From: Arbacia lixula
Taxonomy: Eukaryota > Echinodermata > Echinoidea > Arbacioida > Arbaciidae
Assembly (NCBI GenBank): GCA_963669155.1
Contig: OZ022577.1
Coordinates: forward strand, 26,691,865-26,755,864
Length of the DNA stretch: 64,000 bases
Direction: 5' to 3'
A program made the translations under genes and the position numbers. Shown in pieces: positions 543 to 31,100 of the stretch (position 1 is the first letter of the stretch; every line of letters begins with the position of its first letter). The notes below the pieces were generated by a model. That model was given only the letters and a program-made list of their open reading frames with translations, did not search any database and was not told the origin of the DNA.

Positions 543-3500
543 GTAAGGGTCATAGGTCAAAAAGGAGGAGCAAGAACCATCACATGGAGTACAATAAATG
601 ATATATATATATTTTTTTTTTTCATGTAACATGCTGTAAAGTGAACAACTGCCAATATCAATACCAACATCATATCACCCGTAGTAAATAGTAAATCACA
701 TTCTAATGTTTACAGATAATTGTGTACAGTATCTCCTTTACGTTGTAAAGTCACACACAATTTGAAGTGTTTCTGTTTTTTACTGTTGCTGTTGTTTTTA
801 TTCCAATAAACCATTTTCTATCTTTTTATATGTAGAGACCAAAAGTCCAAAAGCAATATAGATTCTTGTATCCATGTGGACACAAGAATCCACATTGCCC
901 AATCAATGGCTCACAACAGCTTCAACAAAAATAGAGTGAATAGCTGGAATAAAAACACACAATATCAATAATAACCATAACTTTTGATGATCAACTGTCA
1001 TGCAATTCTTCCTACCACATCATCCTTCGACTCTTTAGTCACATTGAAAGGATGATGAGAAACCCAATAAATACACACAAATGAATGAATTTCAGAGTGA
1101 CAAATTTCTTTAAAGTGTCAACTCAAGATGATTATGGCTACTTTACAATTCATCGTGCCCATCATCCTTCAGCTCATGATCCTGATAGAGAAGACCAATG
1201 GCGACTGGTGGAGCGTGCGCCGGTCCAACGCACAGGAGGGATTTATTCCAGCCAACTACGTCAAAGAGGTCGACCCCAAGATTGTCAAGAAGAAGGTCAA
1301 ACGCAAGGTCAAAGTCCCCGAGAAGGTCATGGTGAAAGTCACAAAGGTCAGGCAGGAAGTGATAAAGAAGCCGAAGGGCAAGGACAGGAAGAGTGCTCTG
1401 CAGAGGTCAGGAAGTGGTGAGTACAATGCATTTTGGGATATATTTAATGTAAGCCCTGTCTATTAGGAAAAGTGAATAAAGCCAACAAACTCCAACATTT
1501 GTGTTGATGTTTTTCATTTAGATACACAATTTGCACCTACCCTCAATGACTTTAACTCTTTGTGTACTAGATAAAATGCCACTGTAAACGTATGGTTGCA
1601 TCAGCAGTAGCATAAAAGAGGAAAGAAACCAAAGACAAATTAATTGGGTATATTTCACTTCACTAATTTCTCATTTTTAAGCAAGCCAATTGGGTCTTCA
1701 AGGCCTGCAGTTTTAGCCCTCTCATTGTCATTGGCATGAAGATGTGTAGTACGTCATTGGGGGTTTCAAGGCCTGGGAATGTAAGTGTTCAATGCAGCTG
1801 AAATATTGCTTCCCTCTGCAGTGCGAAGGCAGAGCCACCACTTTGATGAGGACAACATTGAGATGCGACTGGCCAGCATCAACAGCACCTACAAGAGGCT
1901 CTGCAAGCTGAGCGAGGCCAGAGCTAGGTACCTAGAGGATGCCATCAAGCTCTTCAGCTTCTACCATGACTGTGATGAGTTCCAGGACTGGATGAAGGAG
2001 AAGGTGGGCACTTTTAGATGTTTTGTAACCTTTTTATACCAGTTAAAATGCTGCTGAATTATTGTTTCAACTTCTACCAACCTTGAGTGGTTTTACTGGG
2101 GCCAGCTTTCATTTATTCCTGTAGAAATACTGCTTCTTTTGTGGTTTGTGTGAACTAACCTCTCACATTTGACCTCTGACATCTGACCTTTTTCTCTTAA
2201 TTCACTAGGAGAAGGCCCTGAAGAAGAAAGAGAGCTTCTCAGAGCATGTGGAGGCCACTCGTCGCAAATTCGAGAACCTGCTGACAGACCTGGTGGCCAA
2301 CCAGGGCCGAGTGGAGCGCATCAACAAGATGGCTGACCGCTTCGTGGAGACGGGCCACAGTAAGCAGGCAGACGTCCGCAGCCGCCAGAGGGAGGTCAAC
2401 GCACTCTGGCAGCGGCTCCTGCAGCTCAAGGCAGAGAAAGAGAAGATGCTGGAGGGGGCATCCAGGTAAAGGAGAACCTTTATGAAGAATCAATACAAAT
2501 GAATGCAAATAAGCAGGAGAATGGAGGCCTTGGGTATTGGTTCCTACGTATCATGTCATTATCATAGGCCCAGTGGTTAGCCTAGTGGATAGTCGTGCAA
2601 GCCTTCAAGCTATGGGCTTCTATTCTCTCTGCTTATTTTTGTAACAGATTGATCAATCAATCTTTTTATTGCAGAGAGAAACAACAAAGAAAAAAAAAAG
2701 AGACCAACTTTCAATAAACTTATGGAGAAAGTTTATGGTACTGCCCATTAAAGTTTTGTTTGGGGGATGGAGGACTCTAAGCTATTCTTGGTGGTTGCTT
2801 GGCTGTTCTTGGTGGATTGTAGTAGGACCTTATTAGTCCATTACAAACAATCAAACTCTAAATTCCATTGATTCCCGCCCCCCCTAGCATTGAGCTGTAC
2901 AACCACTCCTGGGGGGAGACCAAGGAGTGGATCATGGACAAGTTTCGGGCTCTGACCTCCGATGACCCCGGCAAGCAAGCGTTGCCCGCCGAGGCGCTCC
3001 AACGCAAGTATGAGAATCTCCAGAGGGAGCTAACACCCGTCATGGACAAACTACGCAAGCTGGGACTGCTTGCTCAAGCGTAAGAAATGATTGCTCAATC
3101 ATTTCTCTGTTAATTTATGTTATATTGCATTGATATGTATTTGTTTATGTGTCAATTTAAATTTTTTTCTTGTATGTGTGGACCCCTATGTGGGAGTTAG
3201 GATTCCTGTCTTTCACTGGTTTATTTCAATGATTAGTAATGATTAGGAATATTTTGTCTCGTTACATTCCTGCCAACATGTGGGCTTATGTTAAACTTGC
3301 CCCAGTTCTCTCTCTTTCTTTCTCCAGTACAAATGATGCCCAGAACAAACAAACAATATTTTAATACTATTTTGTGAACATAAAAATTATGATGGTGATG
3401 AAAGCAGCAGCGGTATGGTTAGAACTCTAGGCACAAGTCTATTTAAAACCATGAACATGAGGCACAAACCGAATGATCATAGCATGGTATTTAGATCACT

Positions 3501-6500
3501 GTTGGCACATAGTTTTCCAATTTCCTGAATATCAGTTTAATATATATTTGTATATACATGTACATGTAGCTAGGATAATTTTGGTACATTACTGGTACAA
3601 CATTGTTGCACCACTGAAATGGCCTAATGAGCAATGAAGCTGTTGGAATGGTATTTATGATCAATGATAAGTTACAATAAATGTAGAGCCAAAGGCAGTA
3701 GAACACTTTTGTATTTTTCGCAGAGTGAAGACGTCTTACCCTGATGAAGGGGACCACATCAGCGGCCGTCAGGAGGAGATCCGGAAGCTCTGGGACAATC
3801 TGGAGGACAAGGCTAGTGAGAGGAAGGCCCAGCTGGCCCAGTCCAGAGACATAACCATGTTCCACAATGAGTCTAAAGAGTTGGTGAGTGTCGGTCCTAG
3901 CATTGTTAGTCTAGAGGACAAGGCTAGTGAGAGGAAGGCCCAGCTGGCCCAGTCCAGAGATATTACCATGTTCCACAATGAGTCTAAAGAGCTGGTGAGT
4001 GTCGGTCCTAGCATTGTTAGTCTAGAGGACAAGGCTAGTGAGAGGAAGGCCCACCTGGCCCAGTCCAGAGATATTACCATGTTCCACAATGAGTCTAAAG
4101 AGCTGGTGAGTGTGTCGGTCCTAGCATTGTTAGTCTAGAGGACAAGGCTAGTGAGAGGAAGGCCCAGCTGGCCCAGTCCAGAGATATTACCATGTTCCAC
4201 AATGAGTCTAAAGAGCTGGTGAGTGTCGGTCCTAGCATTGTTAGTCTAGAGGACAAGGCTAGTGAGAGGAAGGCCCAGCTGGCCCAGTCCAGAGATATTA
4301 CCATGTTCCACAATGAGTCTAAAGAGCTGGTGAGTGTGTCGGTCCTAGCATTGTTAGTCTAGAGGACAAGGCTAGTGAGAGGAAGGCCCAGCTGGCCCAG
4401 TCCAGAGATATTACCATGTTCCACAATGAGTCTAAAGAGCTGGTGAGTGTGTTGGTCCTCTCATCGTTAGTCCAGAGGACTACACTAGTAAGAAGAAGGC
4501 CCAGCTGGCCCTGTCCAGAGACATTACCGTGTTCCACAATGAGTCTAAAGAGCTGGTGAGTGTGTTGGTCCTCTCATTGTTAGTCCAGAGGACTACACTA
4601 GTAAGAAGAAGGCCCAGCTGGCCCTGTCCAGAGACATTACCATGTTCCACAATGAGTCTAAAGAGCTGGTGAGTGTGTTGGTCCTGGCATTGTTAGTCTA
4701 GAGGACAAGGCTAGTGAGAGGAAGGCCCAGCTGGCCCAGTCCAGAGACATTACCATGTTCCACGATGAGTCTAAAGAGCTGGTGTGTGGGTTGATCCTTG
4801 CATTGTCAGTCCAGAAGACAAGGCTTATTTTATTTAGAGCAATGAATGTGTCAGTTCGAGGAGCGAAAGTGTGATTTAAATCTTTATTTTTGCCAAATTA
4901 AATTTTTCAAATCATTCAAATCGAAGAGTTAATTACGAAGTTGATACATATATTAGATCAACAGAAAGTTATCAACCTTGTGCAGATATTTAAGCTCTTT
5001 CATTTGTGGCATATTTATGATTTGTAATACTTGACATAAAACAAGCTTGCTAATGTGTTAAGAGGTCACTTATGAACTACAGAGTGATTCATCACTTAAC
5101 ACCAAGAAAGTATATGCTATTGCCTTCTCTGTTTGCAGCTGGCTTGGTGTAATGAGATGAATGGGAAGCTACTGGACACAGAGCAAGCCAAGGACGTTGC
5201 AGGGTCTGAAGATCTGCTCAAGAGACACAGTGACCTACTGCAGGACATAGAAGCACATGGAGACAAGTCAGTTCACAAACAAAAGCCCTTGAGTAACTTG
5301 ACAATAAAAGTCTTGAATGATAAGATGATGTTTAACACCATATTGAAAGTCTTGGATGATATAAACGTGGCTAGTATCTATTTGAGACATGATTTGAGAC
5401 ATGTATTATTCCTTGAGCCTGATTCATCAATATGATATGTGTTTTAAATGTTGGTTTAATTCTGTCATTGCATCCCTCCAAGTTATCTGTTAAATGATGA
5501 ATAAATCAACATTAAAAGTCTTGAAAAGGTAGAATTTTTCTGGTATCTAGCATGGTTTAAAAAGAAATAGTCATTTATTTTATTCCCCAGCTCTACACCT
5601 CAATATGTTATAAATATTATATAGGTGTTGTTAACAAAACAGACACTTTTGAACAAAAATAAACAAAAATGTCTGAGGGGAGCAGGTTTTGTGACATTTC
5701 ATGTTTTCATATTCTTGTGAGAATTCTTACAATATTCACAAAGATTTTGATTTTCTTTTTTTTTAAAATCAAGAACAGCATTTGGTTGTATATCAGATTA
5801 TTAATTCAAACACAACAGTATCCATTCCACTGTCCAGTGCCATCATAGTGTCATTAATAAATCCTTATGCTTCTGGCAGAAAGCACCTTGTGGATTGGCG
5901 TATGGCATGTTGAGTTCAAAATTCATGGTTCATTTTTATTTGACTGATAACTAAATCTAGCTTCTCTTCATTTCTATCTCAAGGTTTACAAAGCTCACTA
6001 AGCTTGGGACCCAGCTGCTGAAGACATTGCCTGAGTCGATGACCATTGGCCACAAGGTGGAGAAACTCGCTGCCATGAAGGATGATCTGAAGCACAGATG
6101 GAACAAGAGAAACACGCACCTGAAAGATGCCTTGGACCTAGCTGTAAGTGTGCTCGTCTCTTGGAAGGAGAATGAAACCCCAGCAATAAGTTGACTTAAA
6201 TAAAAGCTGACAAATTAGAGAAACAGAGTAGCAAAAGTTTGAGAAAAATCAGACATATCATAAAGAAGTTTTTTTGTGTTTAAAAATTTTCATCATTAGC
6301 CCTGTAAGTTTGTTTTGTAAATCAAAGGTAGGCAAATTATGCTCTAGGCTTTTTCTTATGTGTGCATGATACAAGCACAATGACAATTCTATTGTATGTC
6401 ATTTCAGACCAATGGTTTCCATCAGTGAAAATTTGATTAAGATATTTGATTCCGTATTTATGCAAAGTCAACAGGCAACACAAGTGTGTGGATATATGTA

Positions 6501-9500
6501 ATTGTCAAATACACTTTATTAATTGTTGTTTGAAGAGTAATGCTATGAATTAATAATTGAATATCATATGACAAAAGATCAATTTTCATGATACTGTATA
6601 TGCTTATTCTATTAATTCTCACATAATAATTCTTACATTATTATCTCTTTGTGTGTCACATGTGCATATCTTCACCAGTAATACATGTAAATCCTATAGA
6701 GCAATATTTAGTCTGGCACAGAAAGGGTTAACTAATGTTACTTTGTTCTCGTTTCCCCCCATGTTTGCTCTGATCTGTATCTTGTAGGTGTTCAACCGAG
6801 AGGCAGACCAGATCGATGCAACAACGAGTGGCCATGAAGACTTCCTGGACTTCAATGCATTGGGGGTACAGTAATTTTGCCCATCACTCCTCAATCAAAC
6901 ATATGTCCTTCTTTGTAACCTTCTCAGTCCCATAGGACATACACTTTGTCATAATTTATGTGGAAATTTGATTGTTTAGTACTTAGAGAATTTACCAATT
7001 TGATGTTTTAAAAAAAAGAGTCTTTCTTATTCTCACACAAATTTATGAATAAACTATAAATATAATTGATAGTTTAACAATCTTCATAGTTTGGTTTATT
7101 TGAGAAGTGTTGAATGTGTTTGAATTTTTTCTTGTAAATCCCTTTAATTCATGTGTCGTATGCAGAAATGTGTGTGTCTCATTGTCGTAGCAAGAGTCAA
7201 AGAATTGATTAAATGCAAAGAACAACAGTATTTATTTCGTAAAAGCATGTCTTGAGTTTTGGCTTTTGCGAACCCTGATCTGATTAGGACTTAAACAATT
7301 GCCATGGCACCGCAGTAACATAGGGGATGAAGCTTAATTGCACCCTATGACGAATTGTAATTTCAATCATAACCCGCCCTCTATTGTCCATGCAGCAGAT
7401 TACGAGGTGCTTAGTATTGAGTGGAGAAAAGTCAGCCTGGAAAAACGCAGGCTCATGAAATAACATGTCAATTTGTTTCATTCAAATATGAACCCTTTTT
7501 GTTGTATCTTTCCCTATTTAACATGTGATTCTTCATTCTGCAGAGCACTGTTGAAAGTGTGCAATCCCTGATGAAGAGACACAAGGACTTCATGAAGAAG
7601 TTTGACCTTCAGGAGGAGAAGGTCAAAGGGCTGACAGACATGGCCAGTGCCCTCATTGACAGACAACACTACGCAAAGAACTTGTGAGTGTGAATAAGGC
7701 TTGTATTATTGGAATGAAAGGAATTTGTTATTGTGAACAAAATGTGTACTATGTGAATGCAAAACGCTTGTGAGCAAGATGTGTACTTTTAAGAACTCAA
7801 AGAACTTGTGAGTTTAGCAAGGCGTGCACTTTGTGAATGCAGCTATGGCATTGAATTCAGCCTACCCAAAACAAATTTTATGATTCAAAGTGCATGATAA
7901 TGACAAAAATAATTTGTCCGTTTGTCCTGTGTAGTGTTGCTTCTCGCAGAGATGCCATTGTCGATAGAAGGAATAAGGTGAAGCAGCGAAGTGAGGAGAG
8001 ATTTCAGTCCCTGAAGGAATCACAAGAACACCTTGAATTTGTCAGAGATGCTGATGAGGTAAGTAACCAGTTACTTCAGCGATGTCAAATCCCCGGGTCC
8101 TTTGTAATATACTCTGAAATGAAAAATGGGTTACCCAATCCCAGGAAACCTAGCAAACACAACTTGGAACTCTTATTAAAGCATTATAAATGAGTGGCAT
8201 TGATGTTTGCTATACTTGTTAATTGGCAAATCGGTTTCAGTAGGATTGTTTTAAATGTTGCCTGTCAGTCTGTGAAAGAAATGTTTCTATGAGGGAATGC
8301 CATGAAGAAATTGATTTTCATAAGATGTTGGTCACTCTCTAAATCTATTCCATTAAAGAATAAATGTCAGCTTTCTAATTGCCATGAAATGCATAATTGA
8401 TAGGAGTATGCTCACTTTGATTGATCGTTCTTTGCATTTTTACGTTGATTCCATTTATGGTGGAGTTTATTGTGGGTTGATTATAATCTATATAAATTAT
8501 AATTTAGGGTTTGTGCTCTAAAAAATGATGGAATAAATTATTTAACCAGCCATATTTTCATATCGCCATAAAAGTGCTAATGTTTTGCACTTCTATCAAC
8601 ACTTCTACCAACCTGAAGTACTTTTACTGAGCCTTTGTATACTCCCGATGCCATCCTCATGCCATTTAATTTCACTAAGTTGATTTCTTCTCAGCTGCTT
8701 GGGATGTAACATGGTGACAATGCATACCCAGAATCCCTATTGAGTTGTGGCTTGGTATTCTTTATCCAAAATCAGATGGCATGAGGAAGTCTTAAGGAGT
8801 AGACAAAAGCTTGTCCCAGTAATATTACTGAAGCTTGGTAGCGGGAAAAACGGCAGTGTATCATATAACCCAACCAATGAAAGTATTTTGTATTAAAGCT
8901 ATCTTTGTTTAACCCTTTGCTCACCAAACAAAATGCTACTCCATAGGAAATTTATGTATTACTTGTGCAAAAATGCCTCAGTGGTGCAAAAATCGTTCAA
9001 ATGATGTGAATGGTTTCGTAGATGTCGCTGTGGATTGCAGAGAAGTTTGCCATTGCTGAGGACAAGTCGTACCGAGAGCTGACCAACATTCCGGGAAAGG
9101 TCAAGAAGCACCAGGCCTTTGAAGCAGAGATTGTGGCCAACAGGGAGAGGCTGGACAAACTCAATGAGGTATGTCAGGGTTGGAGCAGTGTTTGTTTTCA
9201 GGACACACTTTCCGTTTTACTTATCATTCGGGAGAAATGTGAGCTGTTGCCATAAAACTGTGATAAAGTCATCAGACATGGATTGTAATCATCGTGTAGT
9301 GCCTAAATAAATTCTAAGCATTCATATATGTCACACATATTTATATTGGACTTGCTGCAAAGAAGGGGAAGAAATGAAAAGAGAGGGCCCCGTCTTGTAA
9401 AGAGTTGCGATTGATCTGGATCATAAGTCCAATTCCCTACCTGGAATGAACAGTTATGCTTGATATCAGTCACAACTTTTTAAATGACAGGTCATTTATC

Positions 9501-13038: not shown

Positions 13039-16000
13039 GTAATGATGATGGTGATGATGATAGTGATGATGATGGTGATGGTGGTGACAATAACATTGAT
13101 GATGCTGACAATGACATACCTGCCAATGACCATTGTTTCTGTTGCTTTGTTGGTAGGCCCTGGAGCAAGACATCCAGCACTATGAGAGTGTGATCAAGGC
13201 CTTGGAGGACCGCATCCACAGGATGGCAGCAGACAGCAACCCAGAAACAGAAGCTGTCTGTGAGAGACAGGTGAGAGCACCCATCTCAAACTCATTTCAA
13301 TAAAAGATTGTGACTTATTTCATAAGCATTCTGCTATATGTGATTATCATGTCTTTATTCATATTCACATATTTTGTATTATTACACATACAAGTCACTT
13401 TTTCAATACAATAAAACCGTGTATTAATTAACCTTCCAGAGGTTTGCTTGTTGGCATGCAATATTGTTAGCATATTAGCTGTCCTATGTATTTTATGTAA
13501 CCAGTATCAATGGGGAAATGAGTGCATTATTGTTACAATATTCAACTCTCGCCATGACAATTGCGCATGGGTTTGATTGCACGCGCACATTTTTTAACAT
13601 GCATGAGGCAGATTTGATACAGGTGAGTAAACCCCTGTTTCTCTCTTTCTTTCTTTTTTTGGTTTAAATTGAACCCATTGCTGTTGTCGTGGAAATTGGT
13701 ATGTATTATAATAATAATAATAATAATAATATTGGATTTCTTTTGTGATATATCAGATATATTGCATTCATCAGCACTGATGAATGCAATATGCCACTCA
13801 AGTGCATCCAATATTATATAAATCATAATGCTAGCAAGACTATTCACAGGTCAATTCCTTTTGTAACTAAGGCATGAAGAGACCGTTGATTAATACAGTG
13901 TAGGAGCCGATGGCATTGGCAGGGTTAAACCTCTTGGACCAAGGCATAAAGAGACCATTGATCTATAACACAATGTATGCATGCATGCATACACAGGCAT
14001 GTTTGTGAGCTAGCCCTCAATGATGATCTGAACAAGCCCAAACTCACAAGTAATGAGAAGAGATTGCTATGATCAGCTCAGAATCCTGATGGCATATGAC
14101 GATAATAAGCCCCCATTTGCTGGAAACACACTCGCGCAATGTATCATGTGGTGTAACGTATTGCACAAATTAATTTTTCTCCTAGGATGAGCTCCAGCAG
14201 CAGTATAAGAACGTGTTGGACCAGGCTGCTCACCGCACCTTCAAGTTGGAGCAGGCCAAGCTGATGCACCAGTATGCAAGGGAGAGCGATGAGCTGGGGG
14301 AATGGATTGAAGAGCAGTACCAGACGGCCAGTTCAGAGGAGTATGGGCAGGATTACGAGCATCTAGAGGTGAGGATAGGCAGAAGGGTTTAGAGGGGGAG
14401 AGGGAGGAGGAGGGGGAGAGGGAGGAGGAGGGGGAGGGGGGGGGAGGAGGAGGGGGGAGGGAGGGGAGGGAGGAGGAGGGGGAGAGGGGACGTGGTGGGG
14501 AGTGGATCGAAGAGCAGTACCAGACGGCCAGCTCAGAGGAGTATGGGCAGGATTACGAGCATCTAGAGGTGAGGATAGGCAGAGGGGTTTAGAGGGGGAG
14601 AGGGAGGAGGAGGGGGAGAGGGAGGAGGAGGGGGAGAGGGGATGTGGTGGGGAGTGAATCGAAGAGCAGTACCAGACGGCAGCTCAGAGGAGTATGGGCA
14701 GGATTACGAGCATCTAGAGGTGAGGATAGGCAGAGGGGTTTAGAGGGGGAGAGGGAGGAGGAGGGGGAGAGGGAGGAGGAGGGGGAGAGGGAGGAGGAGG
14801 GGGAGAGGGGATGTGGTGGGGAGTGGATTGAGGAGCAATACCAGATGGCCAGCTCAGAGGAGTATGGGCAGGACTATGAGCATCTAGAGGTGAGGATAAG
14901 CAGAGGGGTTTAGAGGGGGAGAGGGAGGAGGAGGGGGGAGGGAGGAGGAGGGGGAAGGGAGGAGGAGGGGAGGGGGGAGGAGGGGGAGAGGGGATGTGGT
15001 GGGGAGTGAATCGAAGAGCAGTACCAGACGGCCAGCTCAGAGGAGTATGGGCAGGATTACGAGCATCTAGAGGTGAGGAGGGGATGATGATAGGCAGAGG
15101 GAGGAGGAGGGGGAGAGGGGTTTAGAGGGGGAGAGGAGGAGGAGGGGGGGGGGGGAGGAGGAGGGGGGACGGGAGGCAGAGGGAGGAGGAGGGGGAGAGG
15201 GGATGTGGTGGGGAGTGGATTGAGGAGCAATACCAGATGGCCAGCTCAGAGGAGTGTGGGCAGGATGCAATGGAAGCATGACATGAAGTAGGGGCATCTT
15301 TGTCATGTTTTAATATTTCCTTTATTTAATCAAAATATCACCTTTTTTATGCAGGGTGACTACTGTATTAGAATTTTTATGCCTCCGCCACGAAGTGGCC
15401 GGAGGCATTATGTTTTCGGGTTGTCCGTCCGTCCGTCCGTCCGTCCGTCTGTCCCGTCCGGCCGAATCCGTTTGGGCAATATCTTGAGAACCGTTAAGCA
15501 GATTTGCTTCAAACTTGGTTCATGTATGTATTGCATGAAACTAATGAAGTGTGTAAAATTGGGGTCAAATCTGAGTGAGGTCAAAGGTCAATGAACTTTG
15601 TAAAAATTACACATTTTCTGAGAATAGCAAAGAGGCGGAGGCATATTTATCAACTGCGTGGCAGTCGAATTGCTCTAGTTAATTATTACAACTTTAGATG
15701 CAAGTGTATTTTCAAGAAAAATTCAGTAGAAACATTCAATGCTTTACATTTATATTACCTAAATTTGAGCCAATAGCATTGGCTTCAAATAAAAATTTAA
15801 TGTGCTTCATGTTCATCTTCAGGAGCTGAGTAAGAAGTTTGATGAGTTCTGTCGGCGGGTAGACACCGGTATGGACCAGTTCAAGCGCTGTGATCTGCAG
15901 GTGCAACGCCTGGTGTCAGAGAGACACGAGCAGAGTGACTCCCTGATCGAGAAGCAGGACAGTCTGCAGTGAGTAGTCAGGAGGAAGGGGTAGTCCATGG

Positions 16001-25100: not shown

Positions 25101-28100
25101 CAGCTGGACGGCCCTCCAGTCTGGCCTCACCAAGTATCGGACAAAGCTGACCAATGCGGCGGAGATCCATGCCTTCAACCGGGATGTGGATGATGTCAAG
25201 GAGAGAATCCATGAGAAAGTAAGTGCTATGAAAGGTTTACACCTCTCCCCCTAGATCTCAACACCACCTTTGCTGGAAAGTCTAGCAATCATACATTAAT
25301 GGCATTAATGGATTACATGTTTAAAAAAACCCAGTAATGTCATGTTGCATTCATCCAAGTGACAATGATACAGGTTATGAATCTTAATTGCATAATAGTG
25401 GAAAATTGGGCATTGTTTGCAAAAGCACAGAACTTACATTTTGAATTGCCTTTACTTTAGTACTTACAGGCTCAGTAACTGTTATGACACAGACTTCTAT
25501 AGTGCCTTTAAACCGTTCAGTGCCATAGGTGCATGACATGTGTAGAAAGTCAATGGGACTTTTCTAGCTTGGTTCTGAGAGGGTTATTTAAAAATATTTG
25601 ATTTGATTTTTCTTTCTTTGCAGAGAAATGCCATGGACAGTGAAGAGCTTGGCAAGGACCTGAGCTCGGTTGAGTCTCTCCTGAGAAGACACGGGGAGCT
25701 GATCAGGGACTCCACTGCCATAGAAACCAGACTCAAGGTGGGTGGCTACTGACGTAGTGTTTTTCTTTAGGGCCGTCTGTTTGTCGTTCATCTGCCTGTC
25801 CATCCTTCCGTCAATTTATACAGATTAACTCACTCACAGTCAAACCAAATTTGACTGAATTTCATCAAACGTGGTACAATCATAATACATGAAAGGTTAG
25901 GGTCAAATTACCAAAAAAAATTAGGCATGGGAATGCAAATTTTTATGAGGGATTATGATGTTACTGTTCAGAATAACTGCTTTCAACAATATTAGTATTA
26001 GTAATATTATATCATTAATATAACATTATTGTATTATTGAAATATCTCAGGATGATACAACAATTATAAAAACACCTCCTGTGTTAGGATCCATTTATTC
26101 AAAGTCTGTGGTAATAAGTTCCCCTGAGAGAACAGTTTTTACACTAATTAGACATTAATTGTGATGTTGCTTCAATTCTTAGGTTACTCTTATTTTAATT
26201 ACCATTGCTATCCTTTGCTATTATCATTGAAAACAGGAAATGCAACAAGGTGCAATGGAGCTGAGTCAGAAGCAGCCTTCCCAGAAGGCCACAGTGATGC
26301 AGACGCAACAGGAAGCAGAGGAGCAGTGGGAGGCCCTCTGTGACCTGAGTCAGCACAGGCAGGAGAGACTGGAGAGCTCCCTCGCCCTGCAAAAGTTCTA
26401 CAGGGATTACAGGGAAATGGTTAGCAAGAGATTTTTTTAGTGCAGAGCATCCTTCTCTTGTTTGATTTTCTTTTGTTTTTGCAATGTCCCGTTTGGACGT
26501 TTTTTTTTATACAATTACTTATTGTCCTTTACATTGATGTTACGATTGTCCTACACATTTATTTTGAGCATATGCCTTACAAGAGAGGCTTCATTACTCA
26601 ATCCTTACATAAGTGGCCTCCCTCAGCTTTCTTTGAATACACACTATTTTATACCAGTATTTCATCCCAAAGACTTTCACATTTTAATTTTTGTTAATGG
26701 TATGCTTTATTATTTGATCCTTCTTGTAAATTAGTCTTTAAATCCTTACAATAACCCTTGGGAAGATTGATAATAGGCGTTGTTATCATTTATACAAATT
26801 AGAATATATCAAACTCTGTCCCTTCTTGCCTACCTGTAAATTCTGTGCCTGCTTTATACAACATACTTTTTACAATGCATTTTTTTTCTCTTATATGCTG
26901 ACTAGATGAACTGGACGAAGCAGACGTTGAATCATATGGAGTCAGGCGAGCTGGCGAAGACCCCCGCAGAGGCAGAAAACCTATGTGAACTGCACAAGGA
27001 GATAAAGGTACATGAAGAAGATTTACTACAAACAATGTTTGATATCATTTTGTTGTTTTCCAGTGATTTATAGAATTGGCTATATATCTCTCCCTGCTTA
27101 ACATGTTGATAATTTTTGTTATTTTTCATTTGATAAAAGACTTTCAATTTAGTACATGAAATTCATGTTCAATTTATTCATGTTCCCCAAAAAAAGACAA
27201 CATGAAATATGTATATGCGTGTAATATGTCAACCTTAGGACTCGTCAAATACGTGCAGAACTGAGATGATTAGCACAGAGTGGTTGCCTACGTCATATAT
27301 AGATAACGGCACTAGAGGAACAAGAAATAAGTGTCATGTGAATTATTGGAACCGTGTGAAACCTGACCTTCTCTTCTGTGCATGTTCATCTCAACAGGCT
27401 GAGATTGATGGACGGAATGCAAAGTTGGACTCACTGGTAGCGACCGGCTCCGCCCTCGTCAACCAGGAGCACTACGCTTCCAGGGAGATCCGGGAATGCC
27501 TGGAGCACCTCCAGGATGGACGGATCCAGGTGGAGACGGCCTGGGAGAAGCGCAAGACGCTCCTGGCCCAGTGCTTTGACCTCCAGGTGTTCCAGGAGTA
27601 CATGGAGCAGGCGGAGAGCTGGCTGTCCTCCAAGGAGGCTTTCATCACCCAGGAAGATGCAGGGGTAGGTTGCCTAGTCATCATATTAGGAAATAGTAGT
27701 CATCTTACTAGGAGGTACAGTAGTAGTCATCTATTGTAGTAGTCCATGGTGTGACCTCCAGTTACTCCCGGACTACATGGAACAGGCACAAAGAGGCCTT
27801 CATCAGGCAGGAAGATGCTGGAGTAGGTTACTGAGTCATCTTCCTAGGAGATGGTAGTCATTTGTATTGTAGTAGCCCATGGTGTGACTTACAGTTACTC
27901 CAGAACTTCATTGATCAGGCAGAGAGCCAGCTCGTCTATATGGGCTTTTGTGATTTCGTTGACTGAATAATTCCTGGGGTAAGTTTCTTTGTTCTAGTAC
28001 CTACTAAGTGATGTTAGTCTTCTTGGTTCTACTAGTCCATGCCATAATAAGTCAATGATCAGGCTAAGAGCTATTTTTTAAAGGGACACGTCACTGAGCT

Positions 28101-31100
28101 TTTGTGGTGTGATATCGTTTATAGAGGGCGCTGCAATCGACGGCGTTCGGTGGCGGCCTTATCAGCCCCACCTCAGTGCCGGCACTACCCCACCCTCAAG
28201 ATCTGCAAAACTGTGTTAGCGTCGATCTCGAGCGTGTGTGTCACTAGCAATAGTCTTTGACACGCTTTGGTGCATGTACACAAAATGAACACATATGACA
28301 TGTAAAGTCACCCGTATCACTACAATTGCGTGCTTGTTTACCGAAGTTATACGGAGATTCCCGAATGTTAATTAATGTCATGTATCTTTGTTCCTTTGTA
28401 GGATTCCTTGACAATGGCTGAATCCCTGGCCAGGAAACACGAGGGGTTTGAGAAGACTCTGGAGAGCCAGGTGGAGAAGATTGAGGAGCTGCAGCAGTTT
28501 GCCACTCAGCTGGTGTCCGACGGTCACTACAATGCAGACTGGGTCCAGACCAAGTGCAAAACCATCTCTGAAAGGTCAGAAAAAGAAAAACAGCATTTTA
28601 CTCACCTCTATCAAATCTGCCTCGCGCATGTTAAAAAATGTGTGCGCGCAATCAAACCCATGCGCAGTTGTCATGGCGAGAGTGGAATATTGTAACAATA
28701 ATGCACTCATTTTCCCTATTGATACTGGTAACATAAAATACATAGGACAACTAATATGCTAACAATATTGCATGCCAGCAAAGAAACCTCTGGAAAGAAA
28801 AATTAATACAAGGTTTTATTGCATCGAAAAAGTGGCTTGTATGTGTAATAATTGTGAATATAGGCACCTGTGGCAGGCAAACACTTGAGACTGTTTTGTG
28901 ATTGCAGGAGGGACAAGCTATGGCAGGAGACGGAGGCAAGAAGGAAGCGTCTGGCTGAGTCCAGGGACATGCACCAGTTCCTGCAGGACCTGTACGAGGT
29001 AGGGTCCTGGATCAATGAGAAGACCCAGGTGGCCTCTGACGAGTCCTTCCGTGATCCGTCCAACCTGACCAGCAAGCTGCAGAAACACCAGACCTTTGGC
29101 GCGGAGGTGCTGTCCAACAGGGGCAGAGTGGACGCCGTCCAACAGGTCAGGAACTGGTGGACTTTTTTCTCTCCTGATAGTTCCCTTTCTTCCTACCTAA
29201 GATAAGAATGATCTCCCAATCACACAGACCATGTGCACTACCCTCAGCCAGTCTAATATTAAAATGCTAGTCCCAATGCACCCTTGGTTGTGAATAGGGG
29301 AAAGATGGGTACACACTGGAACTGCATGACAATGCCCAGAGCATCACTTATCTTCCTTGAAGTTATGAACAAAATTACAGGGCTAGTCAATACAGTTTAT
29401 TAAACTGACTAATAAATTCCCTATTATATGTCTAATTTTTCTGAGAACTTGAAAAGTGAAATTGGTGCATGTAATTCTTGTATGTTGACAGTGTATTCAG
29501 TGTTTGATGCAAAAAACATTTATATTCTAAATGCTATTCAAACCTTGGAGTAAAAAATATTTTTGACTAGTAGAAGTATGCATTTCTCGTATTGTCTTTT
29601 GAGAAAACCTGAGTGATCACAGTTTTTAGAAAACATATTAAAATCACATATATATCACAAATATCACAAATATATGAGAAGTAATACTAATTTGCTTTGA
29701 TGTGTTTGTGCCATGACTAAAACAAGAATGATGGCTTCTGTTTATTTTTTTTAGACTGGCCAAGCAATGATTAATCAAGAACACCATGGGGCCACAGAGA
29801 TCACAGAGAAACTGGCTGAACTTGAGCAACGGTGGCAGCATTTAATGGATCGGTGTGCATGGAAACAGAATCACCTTCAGCAGGCTTACAAAGTATACAA
29901 CCTTGTTTCTTGCTTAGTTTTATGTTAAACAGCAGTTTACAAATGGCAAGAAGGAGGGAAATTAACATGATATTACACTCATGATCTTAAGTTTGCAACT
30001 TTTTTTCATGCTTAGTTTTATGTCAGACACTTTCTTACAGGTAAGAAGAAGGAGGGCAATATATATGATATGACACTATTGATTTTAAGTATGCAACTTT
30101 GGTTCATGCTTAGTTTTATATCAGACACTTGCTTACAAATGACAAGAAGGAAGGAGATTTTTATGATATGACACTCTTGATCTTAAGTATGAATATTTTT
30201 CATGCTTTGGTTTATTTTAGATGCTTTTTTACTAATTACAAGAAGGAAGGCAACATATGTGATATTACACTCTTGATTTGAATTATGCAACACATGTCTG
30301 TTGATCTAAATTTATCTCAAGTCTGATCCCAGATCTGTAATGTACCGAGTTACGCTTTATATCAATTGCACTTCTTTATAAGACAGGGCCCTATATGCAC
30401 AGGCTTATGTCACCTCACAGTGCTTCCTGTAGATGTGATAATATTGCTTCTAACTCCATCGTCTCACAGGCCCATGTGCTGCAGCGTAGTGTGGATGACA
30501 TCTGTGAGTGGCTGAGTGAGGTGGAGAACCAGCTCCAGTCTACAGATCTGGGCAAGGACATGGCTAGTGTCAAGCAGCTTCTTAAGAAACATCAGGTATG
30601 TTATCTGTCGACTCCTACAGTGTTTCATTTCCATAGACTGAAGACATGCGCCGCTTGGTTCCCGGATGCAAAAGCTTTACATGCCTCAAAAGCATATCTC
30701 TTCTATAGGGCTCTTCTAAGTTTGCACCCCTCAAAACTATTTATCTTTTTTTCTTTCCTTTTTTTTTTCTTCAGGGCTTTGTTAATATGTTTTAAGGTTT
30801 TATCTCCCTCCAACTGCAAATGCACAATGATTGCCATCAGTTTGTATGAGTACATTGTATGAGTTGATTGCATTTGATTGAATGAATTATAGTCAACAAT
30901 TGTAATCACTGTGCGCTTGATCTCAGAGTCCACTGTTTACATACATGTAGGTACGTCCTAATGTTCTGTCGAATAAGGCTTTCATGAGAGAGAAAAAATG
31001 TTGGCTTGTGCACTGCTTCTCTTGGATAGGCTTTGGAGCTGGAGATTGAGTCGTATGAAGAGAAGGTGATTGAAACCAAACAAACAGCTGACACACTGAA

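Follow-up and report, generated by a model that had tools for sequence, protein, structure and literature searches.

Minisatellite-like tandem duplications of exon/intron boundaries have been described in amphioxus under the name of “mirages”, in the Adh3, globin, troponin C and PGBD5 genes (PMC3087553, PMC3902484). Among the globin genes they are found in BflGb6 and BflGb9, and Ebner and others report them at both boundaries, with units of 10–160 bp and with concerted evolution inside the clusters from which the edge is excluded (PMC3087553). The Adh3 data together with RT-PCR suggest that regular splicing is undisturbed, despite the splice signals present in many of the copies (PMC3087553), and the PGBD5 paper suggests likewise for its own repeats of 60 and 108 bp, for Adh and for troponin C (PMC3902484). 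Among the matches listed in our literature searches, no mirages outside amphioxus were found; the name was searched only beside amphioxus terms, and echinoderms were searched under other words.

Zhuo et al. (2007, PNAS) reportedly derived human introns from tandem arrays. Internal tandem repeats are also described at exon–intron boundaries of human paralogs (PMC2812944), while in a potato gene an intron was gained by tandem genomic duplication (PMC4974935). The human cases resemble the locus presented here in that tandem repeats lie across exon–intron boundaries and are able to change splicing; the emphasis there is on new introns or alternative transcripts, whereas no new intron is evident here. 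The potato case is alike in producing splice-site copies by tandem duplication and differs in its outcome, since at our locus it is an existing intron that grows at its 5' end and none is seen to be gained.

The window, a stretch of 64,000 nucleotides, contains a part of a spectrin gene in which the end of exon 6 is tandemly copied at the start of the following intron (array 1; Table 1). This array (period 113, 9.1 copies, 95% matches, score 1725 in TRF) is far above chance. Its first unit is the end of exon 6 itself, and each unit comprises 81 exon-derived bases and 30–32 intron bases, the donor counted in; a partial tenth unit extends to about 4825. The donor-to-donor distances are 111, 111, 113, 111, 113, 113, 113 and 113 bp. 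The 113-bp length looks like the commoner form and the 111-bp length, seen in spacers 1, 2 and 4, like a variant. In a DNA search of the whole genome (607 Mb, 590 contigs) at least nine matches to the unit were obtained, all of them within array 1, so the locus was found as a single copy in the assembly.

Table 1. Positions of the exon-border arrays and associated features. Numbers refer to the window unless a piece is named; L034 and L035 are 10-kb pieces of two other spectrin genes; a slash marks the exon border.
Feature	Position	Strand	Basis or remark
Spectrin exon 6, authentic end TTG/GTGAGT	3724..3883	+	acceptor score, frame; end reset by hand from 4105
Exon 7, starts LAWCNEMNGKLLD; joined to exon 6 in the gene model	5139..5266	+	acceptor score 5.6
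Array 1: nine donor-bearing units of 111/113 bp and partial tenth	3799..4825	+	TRF, direct reading, genome search
Donor 1: GTGAGT after TTG	3884..3889	+	rough matrix score 3.14
Donor 2: GTGAGT after CTG, in frame, +37 codons	3995..4000	+	rough matrix score 4.24
Donor 3: GTGAGT after CTG, in frame, +74 codons	4106..4111	+	rough matrix score 4.24
TAG, in frame on read-through from exon 6	4136..4138	+	direct reading
Donors 4–9 (after 4218, 4329, 4442, 4555, 4668, 4781); the last is GTGTGT	4219..4787	+	
Second exon-end array: exon 14186–14368, GAG/GTGAGG, and copies	14186..15281	+	
Exon 27398–27664, decayed downstream copy 27789–27822 with donor GTAGGT 27823–27828, and part of another copy	27398..27960	+	
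98-bp x 4.1 array, mainly intronic unit, starting two bases before exon end 29892	29891..30291	+	
Last exon-like bases of copies, other spectrin genes	L034 8147–8480; L035 7736–8012	minus	
Exon-start (acceptor-side) duplication	L035 6336–6505	minus	decayed upstream copy; further fragment near 6231

These data confirm the observation made in the preliminary description, namely nine copies of the exon 6 end spaced by 111–113 bp, with two corrections of detail. GTGAGT, which had been ascribed to every unit, is present in eight of the nine, the ninth donor being altered. A two-base addition in the third spacer does exist; however, it is not peculiar to this spacer, because the same extra GT is carried by spacers 5, 6, 7 and 8, the distal ones included. 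The arithmetic of the reading frame was reproduced by translation and splice joins: exon ends at 3883, 3994 and 4105 keep the frame and would add 0, 37 or 74 residues. Read-through beyond donor 3 runs into the in-frame TAG, which would leave donors 4–9 with an mRNA carrying an early stop and thus block their productive use, as had been proposed. The insertion point between spectrin repeats R7 and R8 is consistent with our gene model, in which the repeat numbering is approximate. The repeat units were also considered as cassette exons and rejected: by reading only, an acceptor-like TAG would delimit an exon of 80 bases, which is out of frame, and the spacers of 28–32 bases look too short for animal introns.

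The exon model was built with a custom script over 114 kb (pieces L009–L012, the window and L013); its predicted exons contain errors, and its splice matrices, for which the host gene itself served as training set, give rough scores. A calponin-homology domain is recognised in an upstream exon (E 3.4e-8); further on, the gene encodes an SH3 domain (SH3_1 in Pfam, E 1.2e-5) and many spectrin repeats. A calponin-homology domain, an SH3 domain and about thirty repeats form the layout of beta-heavy spectrin, and the host gene is thus a beta-spectrin, probably of the beta-heavy-like kind.

When exon 6 is ended at 3883, it joins in frame both to the exon at 2888–3079 and to exon 7, and the latter junction gives the protein FHNESKEL-LAWCNEM, a normal-looking passage from one repeat to the next. 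The Pfam Spectrin score over R7–R8 is 208.8 bits for this join versus 203.4 bits with the 37 additional residues, which slightly favours donor 3883; four spectrin stretches are recognised by Pfam both with and without the insert. Domain recognition would therefore appear to tolerate the insert and not to favour it. The script, left unaided, placed the end of exon 6 at 4105 and called array copies as exons, because these copies are open and coding-like. Ended at 3994 or 4105, exon 6 would measure 271 or 382 nt, while the exon lengths in the host gene model have a median of 170.5 and a top of 267, apart from one of 385 in the uncertain tail. L035, however, has predicted exons of 276–301 nt, and on contig C13 spectrin repeats occur in an open frame of 559 residues; thus, exon length is no bar to the more distal ends.

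Compared with the authentic exon, the copies of array 1 show 11 distinct codon changes (grouped by hand) over their 81 exon-derived bases; 3 of these are synonymous and 8 nonsynonymous, against a neutral expectation of about 23% synonymous and 77% nonsynonymous, so the copies seem to change at about the ratio of unselected sequence. Units 2, 4, 5 and 6 are identical over these 81 bases, and since units 4–6 lie beyond the stop, their likeness to unit 2 results from turnover of the array and not from coding constraint. Within units 2–3 there is a single private change (Q to H in unit 3), too few to judge constraint. The authentic exon differs from the majority copy at three positions, all of them synonymous, which weakly suggests that the authentic exon may be the constrained one.

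Over their whole length, units 2 and 4 are identical and units 2–5 are 97–100% alike; to these, unit 6 shows 94–96% and units 7–9 show 88–92% likeness. Donors 1–8 are identical by direct reading, with most of the rest of the unit equally unchanged. By a rough shuffle model, about 21% of spacers 28–33 bases long would be in frame and open, so the short in-frame spacer of array 1 is unremarkable; its two in-frame spacers, one being a copy of the other, do not count as independent.

Array 1 has counterparts in the same gene. The last ~66 bases of the exon ending at 14368, together with the donor GTGAGG, recur with ends at 14568, 14719, 14889 and 15072, followed by a donorless copy at about 15216–15281; the spacer is GA-rich, one copy lacks one base and two copies contain TGA. 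Reading through from the real exon, a stop is met at 14390, which is 21 bases past its donor. The copies ending at 14568, 14889 and 15072 carry 2, 6 and 3 codon differences from this exon, and 2, 5 and 2 of these are synonymous (shared changes being counted repeatedly); this mostly synonymous pattern is not what a purely neutral reading predicts. After 27664, where another exon ends, the decayed copy has the appearance of an old mirage, and read-through from this exon meets a stop 72 bases past the donor.

A further exon, at 29755–29892, was added to the model by hand; its donor is the weak GTATAC, and the array starting at its end consists mainly of intronic sequence. In unit 2 of that array, the sequence TTTCTTACAG/GTAAGAAG at about 30030–30048 places an acceptor and a donor back to back and resembles a recursive splice site. 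Elsewhere in the window, at about 15380–15480 and 43448–43575, there is a pair of elements with the common start gcctccgccacgaagtggccggaggcattatgttttcgggttgtccgtccg and a GTCC run, probably a dispersed repeat.

A Pfam PF00435 search detected further spectrin genes in this genome, two of which were analysed over a single 10-kb piece each. The piece on contig C13 (L034) carries an exon-end array with six AAG/GTTAGT donors in units of 65–67 bp and a read-through stop 36 bases past donor 1; the piece on C2 (L035) carries one with three AAG/GTCAGT donors in units of 138 bp, where the stop lies 54 bases beyond donor 1. In L035, where the script misplaced the start of the array-bearing exon, an acceptor side with the start of its exon is also copied, about 130 bases upstream. 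Hence, in all four other donor-side cases (after 14368 and 27664, and in L034 and L035) the read-through stop precedes donor 2, and read-through cannot be what maintains those arrays.

Taken over the three spectrin genes, exon-border arrays amount to five donor-side cases and one acceptor-side case against about 88 predicted exons screened (61 + 14 + 13). The exon screen supplied four of the donor-side cases and the single acceptor-side case; the L034 case was detected by TRF and reading, the 40-mer screen having missed it because only about 15 exon bases enter its unit. In a control of 200 kb from contig C1, none of 9 usable exons had copies, which says little, 31 exons having been predicted there and 9 having passed score and length.

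Six of the 15 intron tandem arrays of the host gene start across a donor or no more than 50 bp from one, where random placement gives 1.4 (P 0.0016), and four have their end no more than 50 bp from an acceptor, where it gives 1.5 (P 0.05), with the 50-bp limit picked after some arrays had been seen, the random placements kept inside introns and simple repeats included. The exon set of this test was reduced by hand from 65 to 56: four calls at 4177–4781 were dropped, exon 6 was ended at 3883, the exon at 29755–29892 was added, and exons starting beyond 41000 or before −6000 were left out. We use this clustering of tandem arrays at donors as supporting evidence only. Upstream of the window, at 4455–4833 and 6415–6867 of piece L012, two long simple arrays (4 bp x 95 and 12 bp x 38) start 7 and 15 bases into introns and add to this clustering.

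The spectrin arrays agree with the amphioxus mirages in several respects. The unit spans the exon border and the splice signal, its size is similar (65–200 bp here), donor-side and acceptor-side cases occur in both, and in array 1, too, homogenised inner units are combined with a diverged edge. The differences concern the genes, which are spectrins here, and the organism: the genome contains a bindin match (contig C14, E 2.2e-65), bindin being a sperm protein known from echinoderms, so it is probably that of an echinoderm, either a sea star or a sea urchin, and not of a lancelet. GFP-family genes, which are abundant in amphioxus, gave no match in the genome search, but the control genomes gave none either and their absence is thus not shown. 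The evidence on splicing also differs in kind: RT-PCR stands behind the amphioxus globin report, while the spectrin arrays are read from DNA.

The preliminary description had seen in array 1 a protein segment of variable length, chosen by competition among donors 1–3. The anatomy and the frame arithmetic of this proposal stand: donors 2 and 3 are in frame with no stop before 4136, they exceed donor 1 on the rough matrix, the exon script by itself preferred the end at 4105, and the spectrin stretches remain recognisable around the insert. A selected segment is nevertheless little favoured, because comparable exon ends recur with stops before their second donor and the copies of array 1 change without coding constraint overall; an open in-frame spacer is expected by chance about once in five in our rough model, and in amphioxus, splicing around arrays of this type seems to be regular (PMC3087553). 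We consider this length variation very unlikely. Leakage to donors 4–9 might alternatively act as a valve of unproductive splicing, in which mRNA with a premature stop is degraded and the number of units sets the output of the gene. The TAG after donor 3 and the intact donors 4–8 suit such a valve, but the donors are not visibly selected over the rest of the unit (an alignment gap falls inside the donor, which makes the column count unreliable) and the ninth has been altered, so that it appears very improbable. One may also combine both ideas and suppose that alleles vary in unit number, donors 1–3 yielding three protein lengths and donors 4–9 degraded mRNA, whereby a fast-mutating minisatellite would set both the isoform mix and the output of a beta-heavy-like spectrin; to this, and to the broader supposition that exon-border minisatellites are a recurrent and still active process in this echinoderm-like genome, we give little credence.

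The array might, finally, be a product of read misassembly that artificially expanded a single exon end. Repeat arrays are a known weak point of assemblies, and one amphioxus mirage appeared to be aberrantly assembled in a draft genome (PMC3087553). However, the units of array 1 differ by shared and ordered substitutions and by the 111/113 length, the contig that carries them (C2) spans 39.9 Mb, and similar arrays occur in two other genes. An artefact is therefore highly unlikely, although the number of units could be off.

We suppose with considerable confidence that array 1 is a minisatellite of the “mirage” type, close to neutral, in which donor 3883 defines the exon. The same structure built of different sequences after 14368 and 27664 and in L034 and L035 favours this reading, as do the homogenised centre, the diverged distal units and the changed ninth donor. 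A segment running from the last part of exon 6 through its donor into the adjoining intron bases would have been tandemly duplicated, then expanded and homogenised to nine units by unequal exchange or replication slippage, which we infer to be the builder of the array. As copies are added on the downstream side of the authentic exon end, the outermost donor would still set the exon border and the copies would leave with intron 6, so that the array may well be close to neutral. Splicing most probably starts mainly from donor 3883. Where donors of equal strength compete, the choice often falls on the intron-proximal one, and donors 2–8 outscore donor 1 on the rough matrix, which makes some leakage to later donors plausible.

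Array 1 is thus most likely a neutral repeat of the kind already described in lancelets and not a built-in variation of protein length; it changes nothing that is known about spectrin unless RNA shows that donors 2 or 3 are used. If mirages are as frequent as this outside amphioxus, a second deuterostome lineage would possess natural series of donors that are nearly identical and compete in vivo. Such series would be useful for studying how the spliceosome chooses among 5' splice sites of equal strength, as well as the growth and origin of introns.
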